This document shows positions 1 through 19,800 of a stretch of 25,623 nt of DNA, piece by piece. This DNA comes from a virus: positions 4,274 to 29,896 of IMG/VR virus record IMGVR_UViG_3300030329_003552; one strand, 5' to 3'. The first letter of the stretch is position 1, and every line of letters begins with the position of its first letter. The translations under genes and the position numbers were made by a program. Under the pieces are notes generated by a model, which saw nothing but the letters and a program-made list of their open reading frames with translations, searched no databases and had not been told where the DNA came from.

Positions 1-1680
1 AGCGCCATTATCAAAGTTTATAGTCTTTGAGATGCCTGCGTCAACGTGTTCTTGAAAAGCTGATTGCATTAGTACGTGGTCATCAGGAGCAATTTCGGGA
101 GCTGTAATATATACTTCCTTTGCCCAATCAGGAATATTAAACGAATCGTCTGCGTCACTTAATGTCCCACCAGAAGCTAAATGTTCTAATAAAGCTTCAG
201 AGTAAAAAGGTTCTTGTTCCAAATATTTATTTACATAGTGTAAGGTCTTACCTTCTAATATGTTTTGTTTTTTCCACGCCAATGCGAAAGTAGGCTCTAT
301 ACCACTAGCACAATCGGCAATCATACTAATTGTCCCAGTAGGAGCCACAGTCATTTTGCAGTGGTTTCTATAGTGAATAGGTTCTTCATTTTCATCTACA
401 AACGTTGTTGGGGTCCACGCAGGAAATTCTCCCCGTTGTTCAGCTAACTCAATAGATTGCTCATTAGCCCATTGTGTAATTTTCTCCATAAGACCACTAC
501 CAACTTCTCTAGCTTCTTCACTATCGTAAGGAATTTTTAATTGAATTAATAAATCACTAAATCCCATAACGCCTAGACCTATTTTGCGAGTAGCTTTAGT
601 CATAGTTTCAATGTCGTTCGTAGCATACTCATTAGCATCGATAACGTTATCTAAGAAATGCGTAGCGGTTTTAGTTATCTTTTCTAGTTTTTCCCAGTTA
701 ATTTTTAATTTCCAGTTTTTAGTTCTAAGATTATGTTGATAAAATCTAGCTAGATTAATAGACCCTAGATTACATGATTCGTTAGGAAGTAGCGGTTGTT
801 CTCCGCATGGGTTAGTTGCAATCATTCTGCCATATTGGTCAGTCACATGATTATCCTCATTAACCCTATCAAGAAATATCATTCCTGGTTCCCCATTTTT
901 CCACGCACCCTGTACTATCTCATCAAATACTTCTCTGGCGTTTAGTTGTCCAGTAACTTGATTCGTATGGGGGTCAATTAAATCATAGTCCATATCATTT
1001 TCAACAGCTTTCATCCAATTAGAGTCAACGCCAACTGAAATATTAAAGTTATGAATATCGCCTTCTACTGACTTACAGCGAATAAATTCTAAAATATCTG
1101 GATGTCGGATATCCATAACAGCCATATTAGCGCCATCACGCTTACCGCCTTGGGTAATCATGCTTGATACGCTAGATAAGGTCTTTAAAACTTGAATTGG
1201 TCCACACGCTATACCATGTGTTGTTTTAATGCGAGCTCCTTTTGGGCGAAGCTCAGATAAAGCAAATCCCGTTCCGCCCCCAAACTTTTGTACCATAGCC
1301 ATGTCGTTGGCAGTTTGCATAATATCTTTCATTGAATCTTTTAAAGGCAGTACAAAACAAGCAGACATTGTGCCTTGCTCTGTACCAGCATTCATTAATG
1401 TAGGACTATTAGGAAGAAAATATAAGTTCCTCATCATAAAATAAAAATCTTTATGAGTTAATTCAACCTCTACTGGTAATGCCCCATACTGTTTATCTAC
1501 TTTGGCTAAAGCCCAAGCAACTCTGTCAAACAAGCCATTAGCATCTTCAATAGGTTGTGAATTTTCATCTTTTAAATAATATCTATGATTTAAAATAATT
1601 TTTGATTGGTCGGACAATTCTTTATGTGTGAAAATTTCCGATGATGGTAAGTTCAATGATAAACGACTAGATACTGTCAT
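1..1680 (-). CDS. nrdJ: Class II (adenosylcobalamin-dependent) ribonucleoside-diphosphate/triphosphate reductase, partial
   Basis: This enzyme reduces ribonucleotides to deoxyribonucleotides for phage DNA synthesis. I translated 560 codons without a stop from the ATG at 1680; the reading frame runs off the left edge, so the C-terminus is missing. Visible family motifs are the N-terminal substrate-site cysteine in MSACFVLP (Cys108), the QGGKRDGANMAV stretch, the finger-loop NPCGEQ with the thiyl-radical cysteine (Cys292) followed by NESCNLGSINLARF, and APTGTIS followed by SGIEP (from about residue 446). No N-terminal ATP-cone is visible, and no partner small-subunit gene lies beside it, which fits the single-subunit B12 class. 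A strong AGGAGGAG ribosome site precedes the start, 18 bases after the terminase stop. It sits last in the visible gene series and may also be served by a weak promoter inside the terminase gene. Class II rather than class I rests on the motif spacing; the missing C-terminus would settle it. Confidence 0.92.
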   Translation of the reverse strand, partial: MTVSSRLSLNLPSSEIFTHKELSDQSKIILNHRYYLKDENSQPIEDANGLFDRVAWALAKVDKQYGALPVEVELTHKDFYFMMRNLYFLPNSPTLMNAGTEQGTMSACFVLPLKDSMKDIMQTANDMAMVQKFGGGTGFALSELRPKGARIKTTHGIACGPIQVLKTLSSVSSMITQGGKRDGANMAVMDIRHPDILEFIRCKSVEGDIHNFNISVGVDSNWMKAVENDMDYDLIDPHTNQVTGQLNAREVFDEIVQGAWKNGEPGMIFLDRVNEDNHVTDQYGRMIATNPCGEQPLLPNESCNLGSINLARFYQHNLRTKNWKLKINWEKLEKITKTATHFLDNVIDANEYATNDIETMTKATRKIGLGVMGFSDLLIQLKIPYDSEEAREVGSGLMEKITQWANEQSIELAEQRGEFPAWTPTTFVDENEEPIHYRNHCKMTVAPTGTISMIADCASGIEPTFALAWKKQNILEGKTLHYVNKYLEQEPFYSEALLEHLASGGTLSDADDSFNIPDWAKEVYITAPEIAPDDHVLMQSAFQEHVDAGISKTINFDNGA

Positions 1681-1698: not shown

Positions 1699-3423
1699 TT
1701 ACCCTCTATGTCCGCAATATAAACATAGATTACGTTCTTTAACCCAATATGATGGATTACACAAGCTCTCGGAACAAGTCTTATTAGGTGCTTCTGCCCG
1801 AATTTGGTCGATACGAGCTATAGTATCTTCGGGCGTTTGTTCTGCCCACGGTTTTCCGTCCCAATTTGTTGAGTCATTATCCTTTAAGGCTGACCCATGT
1901 GTCAACACCTTTCCCCACTTCTTCTGTAAATCTGCGCTCGGATTCGACGACTTTTGCTTTGCTGAATCGGGGTCTAAATCTTCAAACCAATCCATAACAT
2001 TTCCCATAGATTGGACGCTATAAAGACTCGATTCATAAGCAGCTTGTAATGCCATCGCAATAGAAAAGAAAGCATCTCCATGTCCCATAGGGCCTTCAGG
2101 AGCCTTTAGTTCATTGTTAACTGACAGTATCTGTTGCCGTTGCCTTTCATCTGCTAATAACTTTAAATTGTCAGAATGTACATACTGTTCAAATACTTGT
2201 GCCATTGTGTTTTTAGATTTGCTACTAAACGACATTGAATGCCACACCCCATCTAATCCTCTATCCTCTAATTCACCTCTAGTATTATCTACATAGCCTT
2301 TCTGAATATTAAAATTTTCTGCTACTTGATTTAAGTATTCAATTTGGTCAGAATAGTTCCACCCATCTAACCAAGATTGATGAACTTGCTCAACCGCTGA
2401 ACCTCGTTTTCTAAAAATTACTAAATGTGAAGGGTGACGTTTTTTACCTACGTCAAACCCTGCAAATAATAAATCAGAATCATCGTCGTAATTTGAATAC
2501 GCTGAGTGATTAACAAGATTAGGGTATTCGCATTTTCTAATATCTTCTTCTTCAAAATACGACATCGTAGTTAAATGTGGAACTAACAAAAATTCTGATG
2601 CAAATGATTTAGGTCTAGCTTTTTGTTGTTGCAATAACCATTCTTCCGTATATAGTTCAGGCATTAAAACTCTTCGACCAGGTGCTGGGTCTAAAGCAGG
2701 TAATACACGCGCTAAAAATCTATCGTCTGATTGAAGTTTAGTTAGTAGGTCGCCTGGTAACATAGGTGTTCCCAGTACAATACTAGGAACTCCTTTCAAT
2801 GGAATATACATAGACTCTGTTAAAAAGTGGTCTTCAATTTTATTTATTTGTCCCATATTTAAAGGATTGTCTGGGTCACGAAGTATGTCATCGGCAATCA
2901 ATGCCCCGTTAACGTGCATACCTCTTTTAAATGAAAAAAGACCCCCATGCGTAATTTCCATTGGATTACCATTTACATAGTATCTAAAAGAATAATCAGC
3001 TTTAGGGCTTCTATTAACCATCCATTCTTTAAGTTGTGGGTTACGGTTCACTGTTTTGTTTATTTCTGAAATGTGATATCTAGCCATATGGTCGCTGTAG
3101 GATAGGTATAGCACAGAACAGTCCCTGTTGGCTTTTAAGAGCCTCCAAACGCTAAAGGCATGTCCGAGTAGGGTAGACTTAAAATGGAAGCGTGGGAGAA
3201 TAGCAACATAGTTTAACCCTTCTTCAAGGCACTTTTCAATGTCTTCTGCTACAACCCCAACGTGCCATGCTTGAAAATATTCTGGATGGTCAAAAGATTG
3301 GCTCCAAACATCCCGCAAAAACTCCCAAAAGCTACCAACCTTAATCGCTTGGCGTGCTTCTAGTCCTTGTGCTAATTTAGCAAAAGCATCGTCGAATGTA
3401 GTTGAATTTTGTTTATTCGTCAT
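1699..3423 (-). CDS. terL: Terminase large subunit (packaging ATPase and nuclease)
   Basis: This is the DNA packaging motor, which cuts concatemeric DNA and pumps it into the prohead. The 574-residue protein has a variant Walker A at residues 77-84 (PRFHFKST), a Walker B at 175-180 (LIADDI, with Asp178/Asp179 where many terminases have Asp-Glu), and a coupling-type stretch VLGTPM near 217-222. The C-terminal RNase H-like nuclease has Asp324 (FAGFDVG), Asp379 (GYVDN) and Asp450 (GHGDAFFS). The last 25 residues hold a cysteine set, Cys550-x4-Cys555 and Cys567-x2-Cys570, that looks like a small zinc knuckle and is not a standard part of the family. The start overlaps the small-subunit gene by 11 bases with no clear ribosome site, which suggests translational coupling. 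Identification is firm; the zinc-binding role of the tail is inference. Confidence 0.93.
   Translation of the reverse strand: MTNKQNSTTFDDAFAKLAQGLEARQAIKVGSFWEFLRDVWSQSFDHPEYFQAWHVGVVAEDIEKCLEEGLNYVAILPRFHFKSTLLGHAFSVWRLLKANRDCSVLYLSYSDHMARYHISEINKTVNRNPQLKEWMVNRSPKADYSFRYYVNGNPMEITHGGLFSFKRGMHVNGALIADDILRDPDNPLNMGQINKIEDHFLTESMYIPLKGVPSIVLGTPMLPGDLLTKLQSDDRFLARVLPALDPAPGRRVLMPELYTEEWLLQQQKARPKSFASEFLLVPHLTTMSYFEEEDIRKCEYPNLVNHSAYSNYDDDSDLLFAGFDVGKKRHPSHLVIFRKRGSAVEQVHQSWLDGWNYSDQIEYLNQVAENFNIQKGYVDNTRGELEDRGLDGVWHSMSFSSKSKNTMAQVFEQYVHSDNLKLLADERQRQQILSVNNELKAPEGPMGHGDAFFSIAMALQAAYESSLYSVQSMGNVMDWFEDLDPDSAKQKSSNPSADLQKKWGKVLTHGSALKDNDSTNWDGKPWAEQTPEDTIARIDQIRAEAPNKTCSESLCNPSYWVKERNLCLYCGHRG
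1876..1905 (-). promoter_or_regulatory. Weak candidate promoter for ribonucleotide reductase
   Basis: On the minus strand TTGACA (1900-1905) is followed after 18 bases by GATAAT (1876-1881). It lies inside the end of the terminase gene, about 195 bases before the reductase start. The -35 is perfect but the -10 lacks the important first T, so this is only a candidate. Confidence 0.28.
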
Positions 3424-4434: not shown

Positions 4435-4962
4435 TTATGATTCAATTTCTGGTAACTCATCTTTAATTCTCCTTTTTATCCATAAAGCTATGCAAGAGGC
4501 ATCACACCAATCTTGCTCAGAAAAAATATCCCCCCACTTATCAATAGTAAATTCTTTGATAGCCTGTTTGTTTAGGTTACCTTTACCTAAAATGTATTTT
4601 TTCCAATGCCGATTATCAACTGGTATACATTCTATATTATATTGGTCACATAGAATGCGAACTCCCTGAACCACTCCTGAAATTTCCATAGTTGATTTCG
4701 GATTTTGAATGAAAATAGCAGCCTCTACAGCTGCTTTGGTATCTACTTTTATTTTACTCAAATCTTTGGTAAATTTTCGTGTAATTTCAAGAATTCTTAT
4801 AGAAAAATCTTTTGTAGTACTCGACCATTTTCCTTGGGCTATAACTGTTTCAAAGTCGTCTACTAAAACCGCGTGAACTGCTTTAGATGAACAGTCAATC
4901 CCCATGTATACAACTGAAGGAAAGTTTTCAAAAATCTGCCAACCGTCTTCATTCTTTACCAA
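4435..4962 (-). CDS. RuvC-like Holliday junction resolvase (RNase H fold)
   Basis: This enzyme probably cleaves four-way or branched DNA, resolving recombination intermediates and clearing branches before packaging. The 175-residue protein shows the RuvC/RNase H acidic set: Asp23 in YMGIDCSS on the first beta strand, Glu80 in KAAVEAAIF, and Asp151/Asp154 in SEQDWCDASCIALW. Length matches bacterial and phage RuvC (about 150-190). The start is a TTG at 4962: the next in-frame ATG (4905) would remove most of the first catalytic strand, and GAGG lies about 6 bases upstream of the TTG. It overlaps the preceding small gene by 14 bases. Its position between the recombination cassette and the terminase genes fits recombination-dependent concatemer processing. 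Confidence 0.82.
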   Translation of the reverse strand: MVKNEDGWQIFENFPSVVYMGIDCSSKAVHAVLVDDFETVIAQGKWSSTTKDFSIRILEITRKFTKDLSKIKVDTKAAVEAAIFIQNPKSTMEISGVVQGVRILCDQYNIECIPVDNRHWKKYILGKGNLNKQAIKEFTIDKWGDIFSEQDWCDASCIALWIKRRIKDELPEIES

Positions 4963-5143
4963 ACTCTTCCTCTACTATTTCGTTCATGTCTAATACACAA
5001 TTACGTAAATCAGTCATGCATTTTCTTAAAGTATCAATATCTTGATATAAAACTGCATATCTTAAACCGCGAAGAACTATTTCCGATTTATTCGCAACAT
5101 CTAATAATTCGTGGCTATCTAAAGTTTTAAATCTTTTAGCCAT
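4949..5143 (-). CDS. Small helical protein of unknown function
   Basis: The function is not recognised. The product has 64 residues if translation starts at the ATG at 5143, and looks mostly alpha-helical with an acidic C-terminus (EIVEEEFGKE). The frame is open 30 bases further upstream to another start at 5173, but a near-perfect AAAGGAGG ribosome site stands 5 bases before 5143, so I take the shorter form. That site lies within the end of the upstream gene, with which it overlaps by 8 bases. It is encoded within the recombination cassette between the helical protein and the RuvC-like resolvase, so a small accessory or adaptor role in recombination is possible. Confidence 0.72.
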   Translation of the reverse strand: MAKRFKTLDSHELLDVANKSEIVLRGLRYAVLYQDIDTLRKCMTDLRNCVLDMNEIVEEEFGKE

Positions 5144-5669
5144 TAAAGCCTCCTTTGGAAACCTCGCGCCCAAGGCTTCTAAGAGTTACTACTCTGCTAA
5201 TTGCGTCGTAGGCAGCTTTATATGCATTTAGTAAACCGCTTACTTTTGTATGGATAGCCTGTTGTTCAATAATTTCTTGTCGTAATTGTTTTAAACTTGA
5301 ATAGGTATCAAAGGCTGCCCCACGAACTTCTTCTCTAGTTAATTTCTTTTTACCTAAAGTTTCGCGCTCATCAGCTAATCTATAAATAGCCGTGGCATAT
5401 GCTTCATCAAACGCTGCTTCTATTGCACCTTTTTTCGACGTAATATCTGCTAACTGATATTCTAAATAAGCTCTATAGCCACCATACATAGTTAAAAACT
5501 CTTCTAATTTTCGATTGTCCGAGTTCATTAAATTAGTAAAATCTAACCCATATTCTTTAGTCACATCTTTACTGAATGGTGGGACATTTAAATTTTGGAC
5601 AAAATCGTCTGCATCTGATAATGCCTTAAAAGGCGTCCATTTAGGATTATTGTTTTCTAAACTAATCAT
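5136..5669 (-). CDS. Helical protein, possible UvsY-like recombination mediator
   Basis: This 177-residue product is predicted by eye to be largely alpha-helical and coiled-coil. It has a Tyr-rich turn (MYGGYRAYLEYQLADI, about residues 61-76), then a long basic/acidic helix and a final helical pair ending in YDAISRVVTLRSLGRE. T4 UvsY and related recombination mediators have a comparable layout: an aromatic segment, long helices, and an Ala-rich helix with an Arg-containing end that leads into the C-terminus. Encoded two genes downstream of a RecA/UvsX-like recombinase and between nuclease genes, it occupies a plausible mediator position. No catalytic motif is seen. The mediator assignment is inference; the gene itself is well supported by coding continuity and an 8-base overlap with the upstream nuclease. 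Confidence 0.6.
   Translation of the reverse strand: MISLENNNPKWTPFKALSDADDFVQNLNVPPFSKDVTKEYGLDFTNLMNSDNRKLEEFLTMYGGYRAYLEYQLADITSKKGAIEAAFDEAYATAIYRLADERETLGKKKLTREEVRGAAFDTYSSLKQLRQEIIEQQAIHTKVSGLLNAYKAAYDAISRVVTLRSLGREVSKGGFNG
5148..5155 (-). promoter_or_regulatory. Strong ribosome binding site that decides a start codon
   Basis: AAAGGAGG on the minus strand lies within the last codons of the helical gene and about 5 bases before the ATG at 5143. It makes that ATG, not the start codon 30 bases further upstream, the likely start of the 64-residue protein. Confidence 0.7.
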
Positions 5670-6330
5670 CTATTTCTCGCTTACATGCGCAATAACGATT
5701 TCCTGTGCACTCTGTAGGCTGAGAACGTAAATTCATAATTTTCACACATCTATCAACTATTTCGTCCCAAATATCTGGGTTTTTTGTAGCCATAAATGCT
5801 TTAATTTTTTGGTCATTTTTATTTTCATAAAGCACAATACCATGCTCATAACCAGACATATTTAAATAAATCTGTAATTGAATAGTATGTTCAGGTTTAG
5901 GTTCATTTAAGAGCGCAAATCCTTTATGGTTAATGGACTTCAACTCTACAATCGACGCACCATGTTGGGGGTGCTGAATCAAAAAATCTAATCTGCCCGA
6001 AATAGGGGGCATAGTAGACTTTAATTGAGACTCTGTACCTAATAAAATTTTCATTTTCTCAAAGTATTTTTCGTATCTGTAGCCTAAATAGTCTCCACAA
6101 TCAAAAATTCTCCGCGACACCGCAGAAATTTCTTCTTGTTGTACTAGACCATTATAACAATTATATAAATATCTATCGCATTCACTACCTAAGGCAGAAG
6201 GGTAAAAAACGCCTTTGCGCGCTGGCGAAGGCATACGTTTTAATGTATTATCAATAGTTTTTAATAACCATTTATCTTGCGTGTCCTTTGCCTGTTTACG
6301 CCTATTTATAATTTGTTCAATGCCCGCCAT
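5662..6330 (-). CDS. Cas4/RecB-like PD-(D/E)xK exonuclease with four-cysteine cluster motif
   Basis: A nuclease likely to resect or trim DNA ends during recombination. In the 222-residue protein the PD-(D/E)xK core is visible as Asp115 in GRLDFLI, Glu129-x-Lys131 in SIVELKSIN and Gln151 in IQLQIYL. One cysteine upstream (Cys51 in SECDRY) and three at the end (Cys208, Cys214, Cys216 in ECTGNRYCAC) reproduce the one-plus-three pattern of the iron-sulphur cluster in Cas4 and AddB-type nucleases. No CRISPR array or other cas gene is near, so it belongs to the phage recombination set rather than to an adaptation module. It overlaps the upstream DUF559-like gene by 25 bases and begins after a GAAGAAGAG purine run. 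Confidence 0.82.
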   Translation of the reverse strand: MAGIEQIINRRKQAKDTQDKWLLKTIDNTLKRMPSPARKGVFYPSALGSECDRYLYNCYNGLVQQEEISAVSRRIFDCGDYLGYRYEKYFEKMKILLGTESQLKSTMPPISGRLDFLIQHPQHGASIVELKSINHKGFALLNEPKPEHTIQLQIYLNMSGYEHGIVLYENKNDQKIKAFMATKNPDIWDEIVDRCVKIMNLRSQPTECTGNRYCACKREIDD

Positions 6331-6605
6331 AACTCTTCTTCAATGCGTTTTTTAGTGTCTGCCCGAATATGGAAAATATATTCAATTGATGAATTTTCCA
6401 TTAACTCTATATCACGCTGCGTATCTCGTTTTTTTAAATGCCCATAAACTCCGTCAGCTTCTATTACTAATTTTAATTCTGGTATCCAAAAATCTACCCT
6501 ATACCGACTAAAATGGGTTTGCTGTTCATATCTAAACCCTAACTCAGATAAACATTCTGCAATTAAATTTTCTTGTGCCGTATATTCTGTAGGATGAATA
6601 TTCAT
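6306..6605 (-). CDS. DUF559/Vsr-like small endonuclease
   Basis: A compact 99-residue PD-(D/E)xK-type nuclease. The core reads YRVDFWIPELKLVIEADG with Asp38, Glu49 and Asp51, then His56 and RDTQRD, closely following the DUF559 / very-short-patch-repair-like pattern (VDF, IExDG, GH, RD). It may nick or cut DNA during recombination or repair; the substrate cannot be told from the sequence. The start codon overlaps the recombinase stop as ATGA, and the next nuclease gene overlaps its end by 25 bases, so it is translationally locked into the cassette. It is near the minimal size for such a fold, with no extra domain. Confidence 0.75.
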   Translation of the reverse strand: MNIHPTEYTAQENLIAECLSELGFRYEQQTHFSRYRVDFWIPELKLVIEADGVYGHLKKRDTQRDIELMENSSIEYIFHIRADTKKRIEEELWRALNKL

Positions 6606-7540
6606 AAAATTTCAGATTTTAAAAGTTCTATTTTTTCTGGGGTATCAATAAAAATTTGTTTTAATCCATTCAACCCCATTGCTTTATCATCTTTATAAGT
6701 ATACCAAGCTCCAGCTCTTGTAATCAAGCCTCTATCTAATCCCTCACGTATAAAACTTTCTAGTATATCTATTCCACCCGAAACTCTAAAGGGCACTATA
6801 GCATTACTCCAGTTTTCTCCACCAACTTTTGTTTTACGTAATCGAACTTCCATGTCAAACCCAACACGTTGTTTGTTTTCTTCTATCCAACCACTTCGCC
6901 TTACTTGTAGAAGAAAATGCGAAAAGAATGTTTGAGCTAATCCACCAGGCATATTGTCTATTGCGACAGGTCCTAAACTAGAACGGACTTGATTAATTGC
7001 CACAAATGCTGAACCATTTTTTAAATTTGGTAATAATTTAGGAAGTGCTGAATTAATAAATCGTGCTTGCCATGCCATTGGATTATAACTAAATTCTTCT
7101 TCTGCTACAGTCGTAGGAACTAAACCTGCTATACTATCTAAAACAATTACATCAACGCCTGCAATCATCATTTCTCTAACAGTCTCTAATGCTTCTTCGC
7201 CATTAGTAGGTTGGGCGACTAAAATTTTCTCCGAATCTACCCCACACTTTGCAACCCATTCCGAATCCCAAGATAATTCTGTGTCTACCCAACCAGCGGT
7301 TCCACCTTGTTTTTGCGCATTTGCGCATATCTGACTTGCTAAATAGCTTTTCCCGACGTTTGTAGGGCCATAGAGCAGTGTCATACGTTTTTTAGGTATA
7401 CCACCACCAGTAAGAGTATCTAAGGCAGGTATTCCAAACGGAATCCTATCATACGCAAATGAAGTGTTATTTCCCCTAAATAAATTTAAATTTTTATTAG
7501 CTAGGAGCTGTTGAATAACTTGTTCAGCATTATCTTTCAT
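6602..7540 (-). CDS. RecA/UvsX-like recombinase
   Basis: A strand-exchange ATPase that forms filaments on single-stranded DNA. The 312-residue protein has Walker A at 58-65 (GPTNVGKS), a catalytic glutamate in VDTELSWD (Glu88, equivalent to the RecA DAEHA region), Walker B at 131-135 (VIVLD) followed by SIAGL, and an L2/switch-type NQVRSSLG (182-189). It lacks the extended C-terminal domain of bacterial RecA and is closer in size to phage UvsX-like proteins. The start follows the upstream stop in a TAATG overlap, with GAGG upstream. A near-consensus promoter upstream of the preceding small gene probably drives this gene and the following nucleases. Confidence 0.88.
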   Translation of the reverse strand: MKDNAEQVIQQLLANKNLNLFRGNNTSFAYDRIPFGIPALDTLTGGGIPKKRMTLLYGPTNVGKSYLASQICANAQKQGGTAGWVDTELSWDSEWVAKCGVDSEKILVAQPTNGEEALETVREMMIAGVDVIVLDSIAGLVPTTVAEEEFSYNPMAWQARFINSALPKLLPNLKNGSAFVAINQVRSSLGPVAIDNMPGGLAQTFFSHFLLQVRRSGWIEENKQRVGFDMEVRLRKTKVGGENWSNAIVPFRVSGGIDILESFIREGLDRGLITRAGAWYTYKDDKAMGLNGLKQIFIDTPEKIELLKSEIL

Positions 7541-7755
7541 TACGCCTCATTTAACATATTATCAACTTGTGTATCTACTTTTGTTTTTACAATCTCAAAA
7601 ACTTTATCCATAGTATCTTGCGCTTCCGTTAATTGAACATCAATAGGTAGTCCTGTATCAATATCATTTATATTTACGTCTATTCGTCCGTATTGGTTTA
7701 AATCTAAATCACCAATTCTAAATGTGAATCCTACATGTGCGCTAACTTTTGCCAT
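7540..7755 (-). CDS. Small protein of unknown function, first gene of the recombination cassette
   Basis: The function is not recognised. The 71-residue product begins with an apparently beta-rich half (HVGFTFRIGDLDLNQYGRID) and ends in an amphipathic helix (VFEIVKTKVDTQVDNMLNE). It has an excellent ribosome site (AGGAGA, 5 bases before the ATG) and is the first gene after the strongest intergenic promoter in the window. Its stop overlaps the recombinase start as TAATG. The position suggests an accessory or regulatory role linked to the recombinase, but nothing in the sequence proves it. Confidence 0.72.
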   Translation of the reverse strand: MAKVSAHVGFTFRIGDLDLNQYGRIDVNINDIDTGLPIDVQLTEAQDTMDKVFEIVKTKVDTQVDNMLNEA

Positions 7756-7784
7756 TATTATCTCCTATATATTTATCTATTTGT

Positions 7785-7813
7785 ATTTTATTACACATTA
7801 GGTAAATTGTCAA
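7785..7813 (-). promoter_or_regulatory. Sigma70-type promoter for the recombination cassette
   Basis: On the minus strand TTGACA (7808-7813) and TAAAAT (7785-7790) are separated by exactly 17 bases. This is a perfect -35 and a five-of-six -10. It fills the only sizeable non-coding gap in the replication/recombination region (7756-7815), directly after the polymerase stop codon and about 30 bases before the next gene's start. Transcription would begin near 7777 and read the small gene, the recombinase and the nucleases. Confidence 0.8.
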
Positions 7814-7815
7814 CC

Positions 7816-9732
7816 CTAAATATCCCAATCAATGTAATCGGTAATATCATCAGTTGTTTGTGCTACCCAATCTGCTATATCTTTTTTATTTGCCCACGAA
7901 GGGGTACAAATTTCTTGGTCTACAAATAACGGTATATTTAAACTATTTGTTTGCATTAAATCTACTATAGGCTCAATAATAGTACTCATTTCCGAATCGT
8001 GTATTTCAAAAATAATTTCGTCATGTACTTGCAATAACATACGACTTTTTTTATCTGCTAAAAATTCTGAAATAGCTACAAGTCTTTCATTTAAAATATC
8101 AGCACTTGTACCTTGCACCAAATAATTAACACCTTTATAACTATAATCCGCTAAAACTTTATATATTCGCCCATAGCGGTTTTTAATCCATCCGCGTTCT
8201 TCTACAGCGTTTTCCACACCTTTTATAAACTCTCGCGCGCCAACAATACTATTTAAATATTGCTTCTTGTATCGCGAAGCATTTGGAATAGTAGTTTGCA
8301 TCTGTTTTGCTAATAAGGGATTCCCAATACCGTACATAATTCCAAATGTTATACTCTTTGCCATTTGTCTATATTCTTTAAAATCGGGGTGGTCTTCTTC
8401 CATATTAAACGCCATTTTAGCCGTTTCACTATGAAAATCCACATCCGTTCTATTTAACAACTCACGCATTTCAGGGTTATTTAAATAACTTAAAAATACT
8501 CTTACTTCCATTTGCGAATAGTCAAAACTAACAAACTGATATTCAGGACGAGGAATAAATAAACGCCTCATTGCAACTTGAGTAGGGTCGTCTTCGTTAT
8601 AAGCCCCCTCACCTTTAAAGCCCCATTCCTCATTAGACATTGAACCTATATCATCTAAGTCTAAACTTTCTAATTTAAAATGCGCCCGTGGAATATTTTG
8701 TAAATTAGGTTCGCGAGATGACAAGCGTCCCGTAACTGTGCCCCAATTACAAAACGACGTATGTAATACAGGTTTGTCTAAATAAGGCTTTAAATAAGTA
8801 GACGCTAATTTATATAAAGCTCTGTATTGACGCACCAACACTGCTAAAGGATGGTCAATTTTAGTTAACGCCTCTTCATTCCAAGATTCTCCGCCCTTTT
8901 TAGTCGAAACCTCAGAATAAATATTAAAACTATGAAAAACTTCCCCAAGTTCCGCAACACTTCGAATATTAAATTCTTTACCTGCAACACTATAAATTTT
9001 TTGGGCAACTTTATCTTGTTGGGCTTTCACTTTTTCAATAGACTTTTCAGCGTATTCGATATCAATCTGTACCCCCTCGGTTTCCATATCATATAAAACT
9101 TTAGTTAAAGCATATTCTAACTGCAAGACATCTTCTTGGTTTGACTTAATAATCTTTTCTAAACAATCCTTATACAGTTTGTATGTATAATAAACATCTT
9201 TTTCACAATATGGACCTATAAGTTCAACAGAGCCTAAAGAATAATTCCCACTAACTACTTTTGCTTTTCTTAACGCTTTTTTTGTATCAATATCATACTG
9301 CGCCTCTGCGTCGCCATATAATCTTTTTATTGTTTTTGTTAACCCTAATTCTCGAATTTCTGTGTGCGCTGTAAGGCGAACTAATAACATTACATCAATT
9401 AAAGTTTTATCTCGTAAATCTAACCCATCTTTTTCTAAAAACCGTAAATCAAATTTAATGTTATATCCCATTAATTCTGTTCTACAACTCATAGACGTTA
9501 ACAAGTCATCTAAGTATTCTATAGGTAGGTTAACACCTGTTTGGTGCCTAAAAGGAAAATAAAAAGTTTTAATATTAGGGCTATTAGGTAAACTTACGGC
9601 TACCCCCACACCGCACAGTTCATGTCCTTTCTCAACGTCTAGTCCGCTAGTTTCGACATCAACCGACCATGTGGGGTATTGAATTAGTTCATCTATAACT
9701 TCTTCATATAATTTTTCAGTAACCACTAACAT
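7816..9732 (-). CDS. polA: Family A DNA polymerase with 3'-5' exonuclease
   Basis: The replicative polymerase of the phage. The 638-residue protein has the proofreading domain with Asp25/Glu27 (SVDVETSG), Asp95 (GYNIKFDLRF) and Asp179 (YCEKDVYYTY), and the polymerase domain with RLSSREPNLQNIPR (336-349), motif A Asp404 (SFDYSQMEVR), O-helix motif B (Arg455, Lys459, Phe463, Tyr467) and motif C His570-Asp571-Glu572 (LLQVHDEI). There is no 5'-3' exonuclease domain. Phe463 aligns with E. coli Phe762. A hydrophilic insert (about 352-388) precedes the RRLFIPRPE segment. The gene starts 2 bases after the SSB stop without a clear ribosome site, and is followed by the cassette promoter. Confidence 0.95.
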   Translation of the reverse strand: MLVVTEKLYEEVIDELIQYPTWSVDVETSGLDVEKGHELCGVGVAVSLPNSPNIKTFYFPFRHQTGVNLPIEYLDDLLTSMSCRTELMGYNIKFDLRFLEKDGLDLRDKTLIDVMLLVRLTAHTEIRELGLTKTIKRLYGDAEAQYDIDTKKALRKAKVVSGNYSLGSVELIGPYCEKDVYYTYKLYKDCLEKIIKSNQEDVLQLEYALTKVLYDMETEGVQIDIEYAEKSIEKVKAQQDKVAQKIYSVAGKEFNIRSVAELGEVFHSFNIYSEVSTKKGGESWNEEALTKIDHPLAVLVRQYRALYKLASTYLKPYLDKPVLHTSFCNWGTVTGRLSSREPNLQNIPRAHFKLESLDLDDIGSMSNEEWGFKGEGAYNEDDPTQVAMRRLFIPRPEYQFVSFDYSQMEVRVFLSYLNNPEMRELLNRTDVDFHSETAKMAFNMEEDHPDFKEYRQMAKSITFGIMYGIGNPLLAKQMQTTIPNASRYKKQYLNSIVGAREFIKGVENAVEERGWIKNRYGRIYKVLADYSYKGVNYLVQGTSADILNERLVAISEFLADKKSRMLLQVHDEIIFEIHDSEMSTIIEPIVDLMQTNSLNIPLFVDQEICTPSWANKKDIADWVAQTTDDITDYIDWDI

Positions 9733-9734
9733 GT

Positions 9735-10493
9735 TTAAAACAATAAATCGTTAGTTTCGCCTATGCTAACCTCTGCACCAACTGTACTATACCCATTATT
9801 ACCGTTTAGCGACGGTTGGTACGCTGTGCTATATCTCTCCAATAAATATTCCATTATTGAAGGTAATACGTTTTCTGGCTCTACTTCGGCACGTTGTTTT
9901 GCAGTACTTTGTATATTATAAGAAGTTTCTAAGCCTGCCCCAATTCGTGAAACTCTAATAACGCCTTTAGACAAATCGCCACCTAAATCGTTAAACGCTT
10001 CTATTAATTGGTTAAACACAGAATCAGCTCTTCCGAATCCCAAGGAAATAACCTTAAAATCATTTACAGTTTCTCGGTATCGTGTGCCATTAGCTGCGCT
10101 TTCCACAGGTTCCCATCCATTCTCGCGACCCCTGTCGGTTAAATCCTTATGAATAATCTCCGTTACATATCCCCAAAACGCAAATTTTCGTCTAGGTCGA
10201 ATAGGGTTATCAAAACCATCTACATCTGGAACAGCGCTATTATCGACGTCTGGGTGTGCTAATAAATTAGTAAAACGTGGAGCATTAGCGGTATTTACAT
10301 TCCATGTATATAAATAATACTCGTCTAAATATCCTGTTTCATCGTCTACATCGTCTTTGCCTGTACACCAAGGTTGTACAAACACTTGGTCACCGTCCCG
10401 TAAATATATTTCTTGGTTGGGCGTGCTAGACTGTTGGCTAATCCTTTCTTCTTGTTCTTGTCTTCGGTTCCTTATTCTATTAATTCCGGGCAT
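9735..10493 (-). CDS. Probable single-stranded DNA-binding protein
   Basis: A 252-residue protein encoded between primase and polymerase. A basic N-terminus (about 1-20) is followed by YLRDGDQVFVQPW (30-42), a strand pattern compatible with an OB fold, then KFAFWGYVTEIIH (103-115). Residues 156-194 (VFNQLIEAF, GDLSKG, GVIRVSRIGAGLETSYNI) match the pattern common in phage ssDNA-binding proteins, where a helix is followed by a +I+R.G.GL.T.Y segment. It ends in a short acidic/hydrophobic tip (GETNDLLF), as many SSBs do. It has an AAAGGAGG ribosome site and its own near-consensus promoter inside the end of the primase gene, as expected for a protein needed in bulk. SSB is inference from pattern plus position. 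Confidence 0.65.
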   Translation of the reverse strand: MPGINRIRNRRQEQEERISQQSSTPNQEIYLRDGDQVFVQPWCTGKDDVDDETGYLDEYYLYTWNVNTANAPRFTNLLAHPDVDNSAVPDVDGFDNPIRPRRKFAFWGYVTEIIHKDLTDRGRENGWEPVESAANGTRYRETVNDFKVISLGFGRADSVFNQLIEAFNDLGGDLSKGVIRVSRIGAGLETSYNIQSTAKQRAEVEPENVLPSIMEYLLERYSTAYQPSLNGNNGYSTVGAEVSIGETNDLLF

Positions 10494-10517: not shown

Positions 10518-11405
10518 TTACCAAGTATATCTGTTGCTAAGTATGCTGTCAAGTATCAATTTATTTCTAATATCCTGTACGTCTTTATATTCTTGTGGTA
10601 TTTTCACATAAGTCGTAGGAGCAATCTGTTTTAATTGCTGTAAAGCACGTCGTTTGCCAATTTCCCCAGCTTCATCATTATCTAAACATAAAACAAATTC
10701 TTTTGTAGGTAACGTTTTACAAAGCTCAAATTGTTTTTTAGACAAATGGATTCCGAGTAATGCCACAGCTTGATAGCCGTGTTGGTGTAACCACATAGTA
10801 TCTAGCGAACCTTCTGTTATACATATAAATTCCGAAGGCTCAACTTTATCTGCTCCAAATAATAATTGAGACTTTTTTAACCCCGTGTTATATAAATATT
10901 TAGGTAAGGTTGTCTGTCTACGACTTACATATCCAACAACTCTACTGTCATAATTCCGAATAGGAATTATAAAATCATTGTATAAATTTTTCCCACACCC
11001 CCACGCAGTTAAAAATTCTTTTGTGAAACCTCGGTCAAAAATCCATTGCGGAAATTGAGCTTCTTGAAAGTTATCTGGTAAAGCTACTGTAGGCAACTCA
11101 ATATCCTCATTAATATCTACTAATGGTATTCGTGTATTATTGTTTATAGGTATTAAGTACCTCTGTATCTCGGCATCAGTTACATCTAAATATTCTTTTA
11201 AAAATATATATAAACTACCTTCACCACAACCTGCAAAACATATCCATACACCTTTATCAGTATTTATCGCGCACGATGCATGACTATCAACATGAAACGG
11301 ACACTTAATATTAAACTGTGGCTCATCAATTGGAATATCTAAATTTGCTTCAAGTAAACTTTGTACCCAATCAACTGCTGTATTAGTACTCGCTTTCTGA
11401 TACAT
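10518..11405 (-). CDS. DNA primase, CHC2 zinc finger plus TOPRIM
   Basis: Synthesises RNA primers for the phage fork. The 295-residue protein has an N-terminal CHC2-type zinc finger (Cys35, His38, Cys56, Cys60 in KCPFHVDSHASC and WICFAGCGEG) and a TOPRIM fold with Glu198 (ICITEGSLDT) and Asp242/Asp244 (LDNDEAGEIGKRRA). It is shorter than bacterial DnaG (about 580-640) because no helicase-binding C-terminal domain is present, as in many phage primases. The start overlaps the helicase end by 23 bases and has an AAGAGG ribosome site. A promoter for the next genes is embedded in its last codons. Confidence 0.92.
   Translation of the reverse strand: MYQKASTNTAVDWVQSLLEANLDIPIDEPQFNIKCPFHVDSHASCAINTDKGVWICFAGCGEGSLYIFLKEYLDVTDAEIQRYLIPINNNTRIPLVDINEDIELPTVALPDNFQEAQFPQWIFDRGFTKEFLTAWGCGKNLYNDFIIPIRNYDSRVVGYVSRRQTTLPKYLYNTGLKKSQLLFGADKVEPSEFICITEGSLDTMWLHQHGYQAVALLGIHLSKKQFELCKTLPTKEFVLCLDNDEAGEIGKRRALQQLKQIAPTTYVKIPQEYKDVQDIRNKLILDSILSNRYTW
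10524..10552 (-). promoter_or_regulatory. Sigma70-type promoter for SSB and DNA polymerase
   Basis: On the minus strand TTGACA (10547-10552) and TATACT (10524-10529) are spaced by exactly 17 bases. This is a perfect -35 and a five-of-six -10. It lies within the last codons of the primase gene. Transcription would start near 10517, right at the primase stop, about 24 bases before the SSB start codon and its AAAGGAGG site. Confidence 0.75.
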
Positions 11406-12686: not shown

Positions 12687-12926
12687 TTACCTCTCTGGTA
12701 TTTCTGTTAAAATTGACTTGTCCTCCAAAATATAATACGAAAATCCTAACAGTTTATGGGTCTGCTTTAAGGTTTTTGCTTCGTTAATATTTTTTGCTTC
12801 GCCAATTTTTACAATTGTTCCGTCTGCTTTATTTACGGCAATTACATCATACACGGTACTGAAATTAGTTGTCAAGGATTTATTTCTAAAAAGCCCACCA
12901 ATTTTATTATGTAGCCGTTTTCTCAT
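12687..12926 (-). CDS. Small protein of unknown function upstream of the helicase
   Basis: The function is not recognised. The product has 79 residues from the ATG at 12926; a TTG one codon upstream is also possible but less likely. The N-terminus is basic (MRKRLHNKIGGLFRNK) and the rest alternates strand-like segments (VYDVIAVNKADGTIVKIGEA) and a helix (NINEAKTLKQTHKLL), ending in SILTEIPER, which suggests a small alpha/beta fold. The sequence VIAV..DG.I...G....EA resembles short SPOR-like or translation-initiation-like beta-alpha repeats, but too weakly to name. It overlaps the sigma-like gene by about 20 bases and sits 2 bases before the helicase. Confidence 0.68.
   Translation of the reverse strand: MRKRLHNKIGGLFRNKSLTTNFSTVYDVIAVNKADGTIVKIGEAKNINEAKTLKQTHKLLGFSYYILEDKSILTEIPER
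12846..12875 (-). promoter_or_regulatory. Candidate promoter for helicase/primase genes
   Basis: On the minus strand TTGACA (12870-12875) and TATGAT (12846-12851) are separated by 18 bases: a perfect -35 and a five-of-six -10 with slightly long spacing. It lies inside the small unknown gene, about 160 bases before the helicase start. Because it is within a coding sequence, chance cannot be excluded, but the spacing and the match with the two stronger promoters downstream make it credible. Confidence 0.5.
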
Positions 12927-13500
12927 CAAAATCTCGCTTAATTATAAAAGCTTTTATCTTTTTTTGGATTGCATTTCGCGTTTTATAAGCCGAATCTCCT
13001 AACCTTTCGGAAATATATTCCATAGTCATGCCTTCTAAACGTAACTCTAAAAATTCAAGCTCTTTATTCGATAAATTAGCCCTCGTAATCATATCCATTA
13101 ACTCAATGTTATTAACAAATTCTAGTGCCGTTAAATCAGATAATGAATTAGCAATTTCATTTGGTAAAAACCCTTGCGGATTATCGTCAACATCCATTCC
13201 ATCAATACTATAAGCAATGTTAACATTTTTGGTTTTTTGTGCTTTGGAAATTAACGTACGTAAAGTATTAACCATTACTGTATGTAAATAAGTATGAAAT
13301 ACAACACCTTTAGAATCATCATAATGGTCTGCAGCCTTTAATATAGCAATTCTAAGTTCTTGGGCGATATCATCTCTATCCATACCATTTACAAACGTTG
13401 TCTGTAAAAACTTTTGGACTTTGGGTTCCCATTTCTCTAATAAATTATCGTCGATATCCACTATTAACTTATTCCATCCCGTTGCCCCAATCCATAACAT
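12907..13500 (-). CDS. Sigma70-family-like transcription factor
   Basis: Probably redirects RNA polymerase to phage promoters. From the ATG at 13500 it has 197 residues. Residues 20-87 resemble sigma region 2 (MDRDDIAQELRIAILKAADHYD then GVVFHTYLHTVMVNTLRTLI). Residues 143-188 resemble region 4 (LSNKELEFLELRLEGMTMEYISERLG then KTRNAIQKKIKAFI), a helix-turn-helix that would read the -35 element. Size and the two-domain layout match group-4/ECF-like and phage sigma factors. Start choice is uncertain: a TTG at 13512 and a GTG at 13458 are alternatives and none has a strong ribosome site. It overlaps the zinc-ribbon gene upstream and stands at the border between tail and replication genes. Confidence 0.75.
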   Translation of the reverse strand: MLWIGATGWNKLIVDIDDNLLEKWEPKVQKFLQTTFVNGMDRDDIAQELRIAILKAADHYDDSKGVVFHTYLHTVMVNTLRTLISKAQKTKNVNIAYSIDGMDVDDNPQGFLPNEIANSLSDLTALEFVNNIELMDMITRANLSNKELEFLELRLEGMTMEYISERLGDSAYKTRNAIQKKIKAFIIKRDFDEKTAT

Positions 13501-13847
13501 TTTTGACTGCAATAAATATGTTTTCTTCCACGGTTGTAACGCTGAATTACATGACTGCGCTGTAATTGGAACTTATGATGGCAGAATGAGCATTCTACAT
13601 CTACATAATAATATGTTCGTTTACAGTCTCCCGTCGGACAAATTTTCTGGTTACGCGGAGTCGGTATTCCGCAAACCAAACACAACACTATTTTTTTCTT
13701 ATAGTGCGGTTGTCTATTATTTAATCCTGCGTCTTTTAAGACCTTATAAACATATTGTCGAGATACATCTAATTTACGCCCAATTTCTGAACCCGTCAAT
13801 AAGGGTTTCTGTTTTCGTAATCTAATAATTTTTTTATCAGTACGCAT
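13464..13847 (-). CDS. HTH plus double zinc-ribbon putative regulator
   Basis: A 127-residue putative DNA-binding protein. Residues 17-41 form a helix-turn-helix (LTGSEIGRKLDVSRQYVYKVL). Two Cys4 ribbons follow: Cys56-x2-Cys59 with Cys70-x4-Cys75, and Cys86-x2-Cys89 with Cys113-x3-Cys117. The protein is basic throughout. The start overlaps the giant fibre gene's stop as TAATG, and its end overlaps the sigma-like gene by at least 37 bases, so the two candidate regulators are probably made together. A transcriptional regulator is the best reading. A homing-endonuclease-type zinc/HTH accessory is the alternative, but no HNH or GIY-YIG residues are seen. Confidence 0.72.
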   Translation of the reverse strand: MRTDKKIIRLRKQKPLLTGSEIGRKLDVSRQYVYKVLKDAGLNNRQPHYKKKIVLCLVCGIPTPRNQKICPTGDCKRTYYYVDVECSFCHHKFQLQRSHVIQRYNRGRKHIYCSQKCYGLGQRDGIS

Positions 13848-16800
13848 TACCCGTTTTTAAGTTCATCTATTTCAGCTTTAAGTTCTTTAATAGCTGCTAC
13901 TAGTGGACCTATTAATTCGGTATATTTAAGAGACCAAAAGGTTTCCTCCGCAACAGACTCATCATTTGTAGGTTCTCCATTTTCGTCTATACGGTCGGTT
14001 TCTTCAACGTATAAAGCAATATCTTCGGTATATCCTAAAGCTAACATTTGTGTTTTTACATCTTGTGCAGCAAAACCAAATTCTACGTTAGTTTGCCCAA
14101 TTTTATTATATTGAATAGGAGTTAAACTAGTAATAATATCTAAACCATTTGTAATATTAACTACATTTTCTTTTTGTCGAATATCAGAAACTTCGCTTAA
14201 AGCATTTACTACGCTTCCCTCATACCATGGTAAAGAGCTTGTACCTAATAAATGATGGTGATTAAATGACCCACTATCTCCACTACGGTCAATATCGGGT
14301 GTTATATTTCCGTGGAATCTAGTATGAACTAAACTATTAGTGTTACCTCTATTATTTACACATTTAAAGTTTTTGCCTATCCATAATAAGTCCCCTGCGT
14401 GATTATCGCCAGCGTCCGTCCCTACTCCCATGCTTAATAAAGTTGTACCGCCAACAGCAAAGTGCATACGATTTCCAGTCGTTGTTTTTTGGAACCACAT
14501 TCCTGTACGATAATCTTGTTGGAAAGAATATGCTGGTTGCACATTACCTAAATATCTATGTTCATCAACAGTAGTCCCAGAAAGCGTCCCAGGATTATAG
14601 CTAGCATTAGCATCATTATCATCAATTTGTTTATGGTCTAAAGCTAATATATTACCAACTGGTAACTCTCTACCAACCAAAATTTCGACGGGTTGGACAG
14701 TCACAGTGGCTCCATTAGAATGCGTAGCAGCATGGGTTTCAGTAGTAGCACGAGTGACAGTTAGTACATTAGTCGACGTATTAACCGCCGTAACTTTCAG
14801 AATTTCGTTATCTATTTTAATATAGTTTCCAACGGCAATATTCCCATCTGCGACCGAATTAGTTCCAGCTACTGAGGCATTATCACTATGCGATGCTGCA
14901 CTAGTACTAAGCGAAGCACGCGTAACAGTAAATGTATTCGTATCAGTGTTAATTGCTGTGATAGTCATTTTTTCGCTATCTATTGTTATAACTTGTGATA
15001 CACTAAAATGAGCCACCGAATCAACTACAACAGAAGTTGTGTCTACACTACCATCAATTGCTCCGTTTAAGTTAGTACTTGGGGTGGCTATCGTAACATC
15101 AGTTTCACTAATAGTTAAATCTTCGTCTATGGTAGCAGTATGTCCTGGAAGTCCAGTTGCTTTGTTTGCAGAAAAAGCTCCCCAGCTGTTTAAAGTTACA
15201 GTTTCCCCATCGGCATGAACCGTTGCGGTAGTATTATTATACCCTCTAACAACTGTTAAATCGTAATAAGTAGACCCTCCTGAAGATTGTACAGCAACCG
15301 CTGTAACTAACATTTGCTCATCTGGTAAGGTGCCACTAACAACTGTTATAATTCCACCAACCCACCGTATATCTGCAGCTACTACACGTATTGTGGTTAC
15401 ATCGGCTGGGAAGGTTACTCCGTCTCCTGAATAAATTGTCCCCGCGGTTTCCGTAGTTGTGGATAAAGTTGGATGGGGGCGTTCTACTTGAACTTGTGTA
15501 TCGCTTACAACCCTAGCAACCCTTAAAATTTGATGAGTCTGTGTACCACCAGGGTCTCCTTGAAGTATTTGTAAAGTATCGCCTGGGCTTAAAAATTTAG
15601 CTACAGCTTCAGTTCGTTCGGTTACACCATCTTCATCATAATCTGCAATAGTTAACACATTATCTGTGGTACTTGTGCCTGGTACATTAGAGCTACTATC
15701 ATAAAGAAAATTTTCATCTAAATATAAATAGCCCCCCAATTGGGTATGCTCAGCTCTATTAAAAGACCCCGTAATACTAAGGTTCCCATAAATGGTTAAT
15801 GCATCACTAGTTAGTGACATTTCTCGACTTCCACCAACCGCAAAATCAAGCTCTCCTGCTTGTTCTTGATACATGCCTGTGTCTAAATCAGTACTAAAGG
15901 TATAAGTCGGATGTAGAGCAGATTGAGCTGTACCAGTTCCCCATGTGCTTCCATAAAATCTCGGAGCTTGGATAGCTAAATTATTAGCAATTAATCGAGA
16001 AGCTACTTGTAAAGTTTCTTTTCCAGAAGTAGTGTCTTTTGGTATTTCTGGATTTCTAGAAGAAGGTGCTCCATCGTTAATAATGAGATTACGTCCTCGT
16101 CCTGGGTTATCTCCTGAATTATATGCACTATCTTGGTAATCAACATCATTTTCTGTGTAACCTTGTCTATATATTTCAGTTTCTGTTTGCCCAAAAACGC
16201 TAGGAACCCAAGTAGTAACTGCCGTATTATCCGCATGCGTAGCCGCTGAAGTGCCTTCTCGTTCTCGCGTAACTGTTAAAGTATTACCACTAATTGCAGT
16301 AATTAACATTACTTCAGCATCTATTAAAATATATTGCCCGACTAAAAATCCCGTGGTGCTATCTACATCAACGCCTGTCTCGCTAGCATCTAAAGCTTCA
16401 TTTAATTGCGTAGCAGTTCTAGTTTCACTTAAAATAGCATTAATGTTATGATGAAATTTAAGTGGTACATTAGGCGTAATACGTGTTTCATTATGCCCTT
16501 GATAGCCTTGTACATTGGCATTATCGTTATATGTAACGGCAGTAGTGCCATTAAAACCTCGCGTAACAGCTAATGTAGTGCTATTAGTTACAGTATCAAT
16601 TCTTATTTGTTCGTGTACATCTGGGTCTGAACCATAAGTACTTGTACCCGACGTCGAAATTCTAATAATATCGCCTGCTAGAAAACCAGTGGTAGAATCA
16701 ACTACTAATGAGGTATCACCCGTTGCTACGTTACCAGCCATATTTATTAAAGTTGTTTTTTGACTAGGTACAGCATATGATGTACCAGTTGTAGCTATCT

Positions 16801-19800
16801 GAGTAGTATTTTCGGGTTTTTGACTATCCCCAACTGTAATTCTAGGTATGCCCATATTATCCATAGAAACAGCTTTTACTTGCGTTCCTGAGCTGTTAGT
16901 GAATAATTGAACACCTGCTGAATTAACAGTTAATAGTTGATTGGTAGCCCCACCTGCAGCACTAATAGAAAATCCTTGTTCCCCATCAATTGCCCCAACA
17001 TTATTGGTTAATTCTAATATGGCTCTCCCTTCATAATCAGGGGTACCACCATTTAAAGTTGTGCTATCGTCAGCAGATAACGAAACATTAGTTTTTGCGC
17101 GTCCTAATATAATATCGCCTCGAGGGTCCGCAATATCCGTGTATAAAGTATCAGTACCTGCACTTCTAGCATTTGCTACTATTTGTAATGATTGATGGTC
17201 ATTAGTTAAGTTGGTTAAATCTTGTTCGGCTAATGGTCGCACAAAAAGAGTATGCCATTGATTAGCCGTATTACCACTACCACTAATATCATAATTACCT
17301 GTTTTTAATAGGTAACTTTTACCATCAGGATGGGTTACAAGCGTTACAACCGAGCCTCCGTCATTAGCTACAATTTTTACTGTCTTATAGTTATCAGAAG
17401 CTGTACTACTATGACCTGCCTCAATTGTTCCGTTTGAAATTGACCAATACGTTCCTCCAGATAGTTGGCTAGTTGGAAAATCTACATCTATTGTTTTAGT
17501 CGAAGGAAGAGTAACTGGTATACCTACATCATTTATATCTAATCCATAACCTTCTATAAACGTGGTTATTATGCCATTATTTAATTCATACATATAACCA
17601 GATACTAAAATTTTATAATCTTTGCCCCACAAATTATTTTTTACATGCATTACATGTCCTGGTTGTATAGGAAGTAGTATTGCAATAGGATTACTTGCAT
17701 CTAAAGCAGTCCCGTCGCTTGTATCTGTAGCAGATGCTCCATAGGTTACAGTACTTGACGTTACAGCCGAAATATAAGCATATCTAGTAATAGCCCCAGT
17801 TGTAGCATTTAATTCACATACAACCATCCCTACTTTTGTACCATACGTAAGGGGATTATTAGCTGGCGCAGTATAATCCGCTGGCGTAAAAGCACTATTA
17901 CCAATAACTGCTACATTATCATTATGTGACGCTGCAGTTGTTTTATTAACGCCTCTAGTTACCGTAAACGTATTTGAATTAATAGCTGTAATTTGCATCT
18001 GCTCATGGTCACAAACAATAATATCATTAACACTAAAACCAGAAGCTGAATCAACTATTAATTCTGTAGCACTAGCATTAATATTACCTGCCATATTAAT
18101 CTGCGTAGTTGCAGTTGGGGATGTAGCAAAAGTTAACACATTACTACTACGCGATACATTAGCGGCTGCAGATTCAAGTTGAACATAAGGCAAACGCAAT
18201 ATATTAAAACGTGTTTTTGTAATTGTCCCCGATGAAGTTGTATCTAATATATTTAAAATTTCATGGCGAATAGCATCACGAGCAACATTTAAATTAGTTT
18301 TTAAACGGTACGGTTTTGTGTAGGACAGTTTATTTTTTCTCCGTGCTGTACTTGGAGTGAAGTCTAAATAAACACCAGTAACTGCCGTATTGTCGCTATG
18401 GCTAGCTGGAGTTGTCCCATTATATCCACGCGTTACAGTTAATGTATTACTACTACGCGCAGTAATAAGCATTTGTTCTGATTCGCAATTAATAATTTGA
18501 TTTATAGCAAACACACTAGCATCATCGACATCTACAGCAGTTTCGCTAGTATCTAACGCTTCATTTAATTGGGTAGCTGCCGTTGAAGATGCAGCAACTC
18601 CTGCAGTTAAAAAAAATCTAGTACTACTAGAAGAACTTGGAAACGGGTCAAAATCTTGTCCCGATTCATTTGTAAACTGGAAAGTAGTTGGTTCATCATA
18701 AATATTACCCAATAATACATATTGAGAAGAACCAGTACCACTTTGATACTGAAGTGTAGCACATGGATTAACCACAGTTCCAGTTACTGTAGCATCATCA
18801 CTATGGCTTGCCTCACTAGTACTACTAGATGCTCTTGTTACCGTAAAAGTATTAGTACTAGTATTAATAGCGGTAATAGTCATTTTTTCACTATCTACAG
18901 TTATAATTTGTCCTACGACAAAATCAGTAACTGAATCAACTACCACTGAAGTCACACTATCATTTATAGCTCCATTTAACGCCGTTGTGGGATTAGCTCT
19001 ATATAAAAGTAACGGATTAGTAGATTCCGCATCTTTGTCTGAGCCTGTTGGGGCAGTGTATTTAATATACGTTAAACGTTTTCCAGACCAATCTATATTT
19101 CCTACTATAGTTGCAGGTAAAAGTTCAAAAGTAGCAGTATTTTCAAATTGAGTATTTGTTCCTGAATCTGAAACCGCAGTTTCTGTATAATGTACAATAG
19201 CAGATGTGTATAATACGGATGTAGTAGAATCAAATTCACAATCTTGTAGCATTGCCCGTTTATAATTTGTTTCTCCAGTCCATCCCTCTGATGGAAATTC
19301 AACGGTTAACCCATACTTACTAGGGTCTGCAGCTGTACTTCCCCCAACTCCTGGACGGGTTCCTCTTAAAAAATAATTAAAATCCACATTAGGATTATGC
19401 GTACTAACTAAACTTGTAATATTTGGGTCTATATGAAAATCGTACCCAAAATGTTTATTATCTGTAGAACTGTGAGGTTCAGCCATAGCTAACGTATGAA
19501 TCGTACGTAATAATTGTCCTTTGCCTGATTTAGTAATATCTAACGCATCTTTATGCGCTGAAGTCGTGTCTCCAGTTGCTCGTTCATTAGCTGTAAATGC
19601 AACTTGTGATGCTTCAAATTTAGATGTATCATCGGTATCAAAATTGTCTGATACTGCGTCTAAGATTTTTTGAATTACTCCGCTTCGTTTTGTTGTATCA
19701 GGTGTTTGACCACTACTCTCAATATCAATAGTTTTTAAAGCTGAGGGAACGTGGTCTAACGGATAGTCGGATAACTCCGACAAAACTTCTCTTAATAATA

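Follow-up and report, generated by a model that had tools for sequence, protein, structure and literature searches.

A predicted Vsr-type nuclease gene overlapping cas4 is a fixed component of a compact recombination operon in an uncultured phage lineage

The recombination machinery of phage T4, made up of UvsX, UvsY, gp32, gp46/47 and endonuclease VII (roles as given in PMC3016280), has a RecA-family recombinase, a resecting nuclease and a junction resolvase in common with the phage locus described here, which in addition encodes a candidate mediator whose best, though weak, fold match is T4 UvsY. By comparison with T4, our locus has a Cas4-like Fe-S nuclease that is predicted to carry out resection, a RuvC-like protein in place of endonuclease VII and an extra Vsr-type nuclease, which we call D559, all within a compact single operon beside the terminase. 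An analogous set is known from the Stanwilliamsviridae, where the Streptomyces phages Tomas and Faust encode a UvsX-like recombinase, a small nuclease, a Cas4-family exonuclease and a RuvC-like resolvase within ~5 kb, followed in Tomas by the terminase; our locus is therefore not alone in adding a small nuclease to a cassette of this kind. However, the small nuclease of Tomas and Faust (phrog_2002), annotated as a Holliday junction resolvase, does not lie beside cas4, and DnaE stands upstream where our module has PolA. We considered phrog_2002 as a homologue of D559 and rejected it, as there is no profile similarity between them. A literature search found no paper describing a RecA–D559–Cas4 cassette, and the fixed pairing of an EDxHD/Vsr-type nuclease with Cas4 appears to be undescribed in the literature searched.

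The window that we analysed, 25,623 nucleotides in length, is part of a 29.9-kb IMG/VR virus record (IMGVR_UViG_3300030329_003552). An almost gapless chain of genes runs along its minus strand from 7755 to 4435, beginning with a small uncharacterised protein of 71 amino acids, P71 (7540..7755), that is kept between PolA and RecA. There follow the RecA/UvsX-like recombinase (312 aa, 6602..7540), D559 (99 aa, 6306..6605), the Cas4-like nuclease (222 aa, 5662..6330), the helical protein P177 (5136..5669), a second small uncharacterised protein, P64 (4949..5143), and the RuvC-like Holliday junction resolvase (4435..4962, with a TTG start at 4962). P64 was assigned the ATG start at 5143, which has a GGAGG site; a longer form from a TTG at 5173 was judged less likely. 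Downstream on the same strand are P166 (3922..4422), a conserved uncharacterised protein recognised by synteny in the interval between RuvC and TerS, a terminase small subunit-like protein assigned by family profile matches (TerS, PF06056; 3413..3913), and the terminase large subunit (TerL, 1699..3423), which was identified by tblastn against annotated phage terminases and adjoins TerS in relatives. Upstream, also on the minus strand, the constant neighbour by synteny is a family A DNA polymerase (PolA, 7816..9732; phrog_17, E 5e-103). Successive genes of the chain overlap by 1 nt (P71/RecA), 4 nt (RecA/D559, at an ATGA), 25 nt (D559/Cas4, 6306..6330), 8 nt (Cas4/P177), 8 nt (P177/P64) and 14 nt (P64/RuvC), and these overlaps suggest that the chain is co-transcribed and translationally coupled. 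All of the genes named for 4435-7813 in a first-pass annotation of this DNA are present there on the minus strand, and its gene assignments are all supported. PHROG/Pfam-type profile scans returned no family match for P71, P177 or P64.

The recombinase matches the RecA domain PF00154 at 149.9 bits (cut-off 27; E 1e-43) and phrog_97 with E 2e-48, and falls below the bacterial RecA equivalog cut-off (TIGR02012, 177 vs 325). The RuvC-like protein matches phrog_159 (E 1e-10) and phrog_1770, and its acidic residues D23, E80, D151 and D154, which correspond to an RNase H-fold active site, occur in 100-102 of 102 sequences. The Cas4-like protein matches phrog_1706 (E 8e-22) and phrog_1990, and the Cas4 structures 4ic1 and 4r5q are among its nearest solved relatives, which include a Cas4-family exonuclease. 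It shares with Cas4 and these phage exonucleases the PD-(D/E)xK and QxxxY motifs and four candidate Fe-S cysteines. D115, E129, K131, Q151 and Y155, together with C51, C208, C214 and C216, are invariant in 104/104 sequences, in agreement with the earlier prediction of a Cas4-like nuclease with an iron-sulphur cluster. The window protein is a solo phage form; no CRISPR genes were seen nearby, and its C-terminal cysteines are spaced C-x5-C-x-C. For one Cas4-like phage protein the present locus offers a candidate function, where the roles of the class have been described as unknown (PMC5704561).

D559 matches Pfam DUF559 (PF04480) at 32.4 bits (cut-off 20.6), and its matches to Vsr families lie below cut-off (PF03852, 22 vs 27; NCBIfam vsr TIGR00632, 22.8 vs 97.85 bits). 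In a profile search its nearest solved relative was 3r3p, the catalytic domain of I-Bth0305I (E 9e-6), followed by 3hrl and Vsr; a Foldseek search with an AlphaFold2 model (pLDDT 87.8) likewise returned 3r3p first (E 3.5e-4, TM 0.69-0.71), with Vsr (1cw0) and 3hrl close behind. Residues E12, D38, E49, D51 and H56 are invariant in 93/93 sequences, and the protein has an E-x-D without the classical catalytic lysine (E-x-K). Fold and active-site residues thus agree with the proposal of a 99-residue DUF559/Vsr-like nuclease, and D559 is best described as a minimal EDxHD/Vsr-type nuclease, closest to I-Bth0305I, whose activity is predicted. As had been proposed, the operon holds two nucleases of different families; the active sites of both are intact.

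P177 had been put forward as a possible UvsY-like mediator. Its AlphaFold2 model (pLDDT 89.8) is helical, with two helices of 53-54 residues, and Foldseek against the PDB placed T4 UvsY (4zwt) first, with T4 UvsY chains occupying most of the top ranks, although the match is weak (E 0.06, TM 0.48/0.65) and helical proteins match easily. Its BFVD matches, also with weak scores, include phage proteins annotated as binding ssDNA or acting in recombination. At the sequence level P177 shows no similarity to T4 UvsY (hhalign against the single T4 sequence, E 0.55), and the KARL motif occurs in 0/98 relatives. The proposal thus gains some support from the weak fold match and none from sequence; we consider P177 a candidate UvsY-type mediator, which would place such a protein outside the T4-like phages.

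Relatives of the locus were gathered by scans with Cas4, D559, RecA and P177 as queries, which yielded hundreds of contigs. Almost all of ~200 loci share the order PolA-P71-RecA-D559-Cas4-P177-(P64)-RuvC-P166-TerS-TerL, which is conserved across hundreds of IMG/VR contigs, P64 occurring in a subset of relatives only. When Cas4 was clustered at 90% identity, 90 of the 94 clusters had enough upstream sequence to test, and in all 90 the gene immediately upstream of Cas4, in the same orientation, is D559, itself preceded by RecA. The same arrangement of D559 upstream of Cas4 was found in 58/58 clusters in a control for query bias, restricted to loci that the Cas4, RecA or P177 queries had retrieved. 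Gene order is thus conserved far beyond chance. The neighbourhood of the nuclease pair beside the recombinase, on whose conservation in related phages the first-pass annotation had staked its proposal, is kept in relatives, as is the adjacency of the recombination genes to the terminase, with TerS and TerL downstream. A 110-kb groundwater contig (JACOXG010000010.1) from a Candidatus Daviesbacteria metagenome-assembled genome has the same order plus extra genes, with identities to the window of 32-57% for PolA, RecA, D559 and Cas4 and a D559/cas4 overlap of 25 nt, as in the window. Since it carries TerS and an adjoining TerL that is 53% identical to that of the window, we regard it as a phage contig within the Daviesbacteria bin, which is possibly a hint of the host.

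The explanation that we consider best, with confidence little better than even, is that these genes form a fixed replication-recombination-packaging module with T4-like workings and different parts, in which D559 partners Cas4. According to this model, the Cas4-like exonuclease would do the work of T4 gp46/47 and resect DNA ends to leave 3' tails, consistent with the 3' overhangs that Cas4 is described as producing (PMC5704561). P177 would load the RecA/UvsX-like recombinase as UvsY does, strand exchange by the recombinase would follow, PolA would extend the invading strand, the RuvC-like protein would resolve the junctions and the adjacent terminase would package the resulting concatemers. 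D559, domesticated and without a DNA-binding domain, would provide Cas4 with an endonucleolytic step, most likely by nicking or cutting mismatched, branched or flapped DNA to open a way in or to clean the end. The make-up of the locus matches a module for recombination-dependent replication and repair; the pathway, its substrates, the physical partnership of the nucleases and their co-translation are inferred. However, neither an ssDNA-binding protein nor an Mre11-like nuclease was identified, which counts against the model, as do the missing catalytic lysine of D559 and the weak UvsY match of P177. In a stricter form of the model, which we think unlikely, D559 and Cas4, translated in a coupled manner, would be the two obligate components of a single nuclease, with D559, a domesticated catalytic domain of a homing endonuclease, making the entry cut and Cas4 resecting; such a complex would be a new kind of phage double-strand-break processing machine replacing those of the gp46/47 or RecBCD type. 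RecA, D559, Cas4, the UvsY-like protein and RuvC in any case make a compact set that is open to reconstitution in vitro.

It could instead be that the arrangement is the ordinary core synteny of one phage lineage, the overlaps being a matter of compaction and the nucleases acting in unrelated steps of DNA metabolism. Overlapping genes are frequent elsewhere in this operon, conservation extends to every gene from Pol to TerL, and part of what is shared across the lineage may come down to the general synteny of a phage core. However, the D559/Cas4 junction alone is free of insertions among the four junctions examined, in all clusters, while RecA/D559, Cas4/P177 and P177/RuvC are each interrupted in some, and we therefore consider this alternative distinctly unlikely. 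The D559 and cas4 genes overlap in 98/100 distinct gene pairs, mostly by 25-40 nt. Between RecA and D559 there is extra DNA, mostly small genes, in 13/92 clusters, and the insertions at Cas4/P177 and P177/RuvC comprise a 235-253-aa protein, a 350-aa uncharacterised protein and a ThyX-like gene. Of its two neighbours, D559 is thus more closely bound to Cas4 than to RecA. The first-pass annotation had both small nucleases translationally locked to the recombinase; that both families are fixed in the operon, with active sites intact, was upheld, and the tighter bond proved to be that between D559 and Cas4. Translation of D559 is probably coupled to that of recA, because the window gene lacks a Shine-Dalgarno sequence and starts at the ATGA overlap with recA, and across clusters such a sequence precedes D559 in 41% compared with 82-88% for RecA and Cas4.

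A further alternative to a D559–Cas4 partnership is that D559 is a Vsr-like mismatch nickase, serving very-short-patch or replication-error repair and merely co-expressed with the recombination genes. D559 resembles E. coli Vsr (1cw0, 1vsr) and Caulobacter VsrA in fold and active-site spacing, its D38-D51-H56 (D-13-D-5-H) corresponding to D51-H64-H69 of the E. coli enzyme with an aspartate replacing H64, so that D559 reads E-A-D-G where Vsr has F-T-H-G. VsrA, a Vsr-like DUF559 protein that has been proposed to act on TG mismatches, likewise has an aspartate in place of H64 (PMC12907096). On the other hand, no cytosine methyltransferase partner was seen among the window proteins scanned against families, and the constant coupling of D559 is to cas4 rather than to a methyltransferase. 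We consider a mismatch nickase more doubtful still than unrelated core synteny.

The similarity to I-Bth0305I, whose catalytic domain D559 resembles in fold and sequence profile, suggests that D559 is a homing-type nuclease that became domesticated into the recombination module. It also raises the question of whether D559 is still an active free-standing homing endonuclease at recA–cas4, spreading by cutting alleles that lack it, and in favour of this its PHROG, PADLOC and cultured-phage matches are mostly to homing endonucleases. (In cultured phages D559 was matched by three weak hits alone, of which two or more fall on a single gene of homing type, and no match to P177 was found.) A selfish homing gene is expected to be sporadically present, to have empty sites and to be inherited independently of its neighbours. 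D559 instead occupies one and the same position in all clusters that could be tested (90/90, and 58/58 in the control), leaving no empty allele to home into, and it overlaps two genes. Its length of 97-123 aa in all relatives corresponds to the catalytic domain only, with no DNA-binding region, whereas phage homing enzymes carry extended DNA-binding regions (PMC3943268). The dN/dS of D559 is 0.063, compared with 0.061 for RecA and 0.071 for Cas4, and every gene tested falls within 0.04-0.08. Tree distances of D559 correlate at r 0.68-0.79 with the distances for PolA, TerS, TerL, RecA and P177, at 0.61 with Cas4 and at 0.53 with RuvC, within the spread of other gene pairs. Always present, confined to the catalytic domain, low in dN/dS and congruent in its distances with the genome, D559 is therefore a fixed component of the module, under purifying selection and evolving with the genome, and an active homing endonuclease is very improbable. 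In this large lineage of uncultured phages, a nuclease fold of homing type has become a fixed core gene that keeps one position in the recombination operon.

The least credible reading, in our view, is that the two nucleases serve not phage recombination but the breakdown of host DNA or the evasion of host defence, for example via CRISPR adaptation. A role against defence has been proposed for phage Cas4-like proteins, and spacer acquisition is altered by the Cas4 of one Campylobacter phage (PMC5704561). However, the universal presence, slow evolution and fixed replication-packaging placement of the pair are unlike those of arms-race genes; matches to the defence library (PADLOC) were weak, and a defence-system reading of the pair was set aside.

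The chain had also been credited with a single promoter. A promoter-like site, TTGACA-17-TAAAAT, with an 11/12 match to consensus, lies on the minus strand at 7785..7813 in the only gap of the chain, before P71. However, promoter-like sites in the region are no more frequent than in shuffles (33 vs 33.7), and a site of at least 10/12 occurs at the equivalent position in only 14/72 relatives, so that while the site is in the right place, its role as promoter of the chain is merely plausible. A second site of this kind (TTGACA-17-TATACT, 11/12) is found at 10524-10552 on the minus strand, before a gene at 9735-10493. The window also encodes a sigma-70-family factor (12907-13512, minus strand; PF04542, E 3e-12); the phage may thus use promoters of its own, and scans for sigma-70 sites may mislead.

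Several minor observations concern the relatives and the rest of the window. A conserved uncharacterised protein of 235-253 aa between Cas4 and P177 (L071 2155-2871, L235 6953-7669, L304 6690-7442) carries 'FTGADDS...EWGIL...FGYAGGLNIDTLP', and a small 'MSADNYILIRKE' protein of 66-92 aa is a recurrent insert between RecA and D559 (L104 7799-7999, L097 1847-2050, L167 1885-2085). What we take to be a ThyX-like thymidylate synthase lies between P177 and RuvC in some relatives (L285 7171-7986, L201 6485-7327). One contig (L018) seemed at first to lack D559 on the forward strand, a best-hit artefact, as the gene is in place at 2120-2404; a second, inverted copy at its end (4506-4790) is probably an assembly artefact. 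A presumed ribonucleotide-reductase-like protein, assigned by motif (window 1-1680, minus strand, and L002 4124-5953), contains a short masked segment close to its end. The sigma factor gene and the tail fibre gene are separated by that of an HTH protein of 127 aa, which weakly matches an HNH-endonuclease family (13464-13847, minus strand), and the likely tail fibre or spike itself is a 2097-aa protein with a C-terminal Peptidase_S74 chaperone domain (13847-20140, minus strand).
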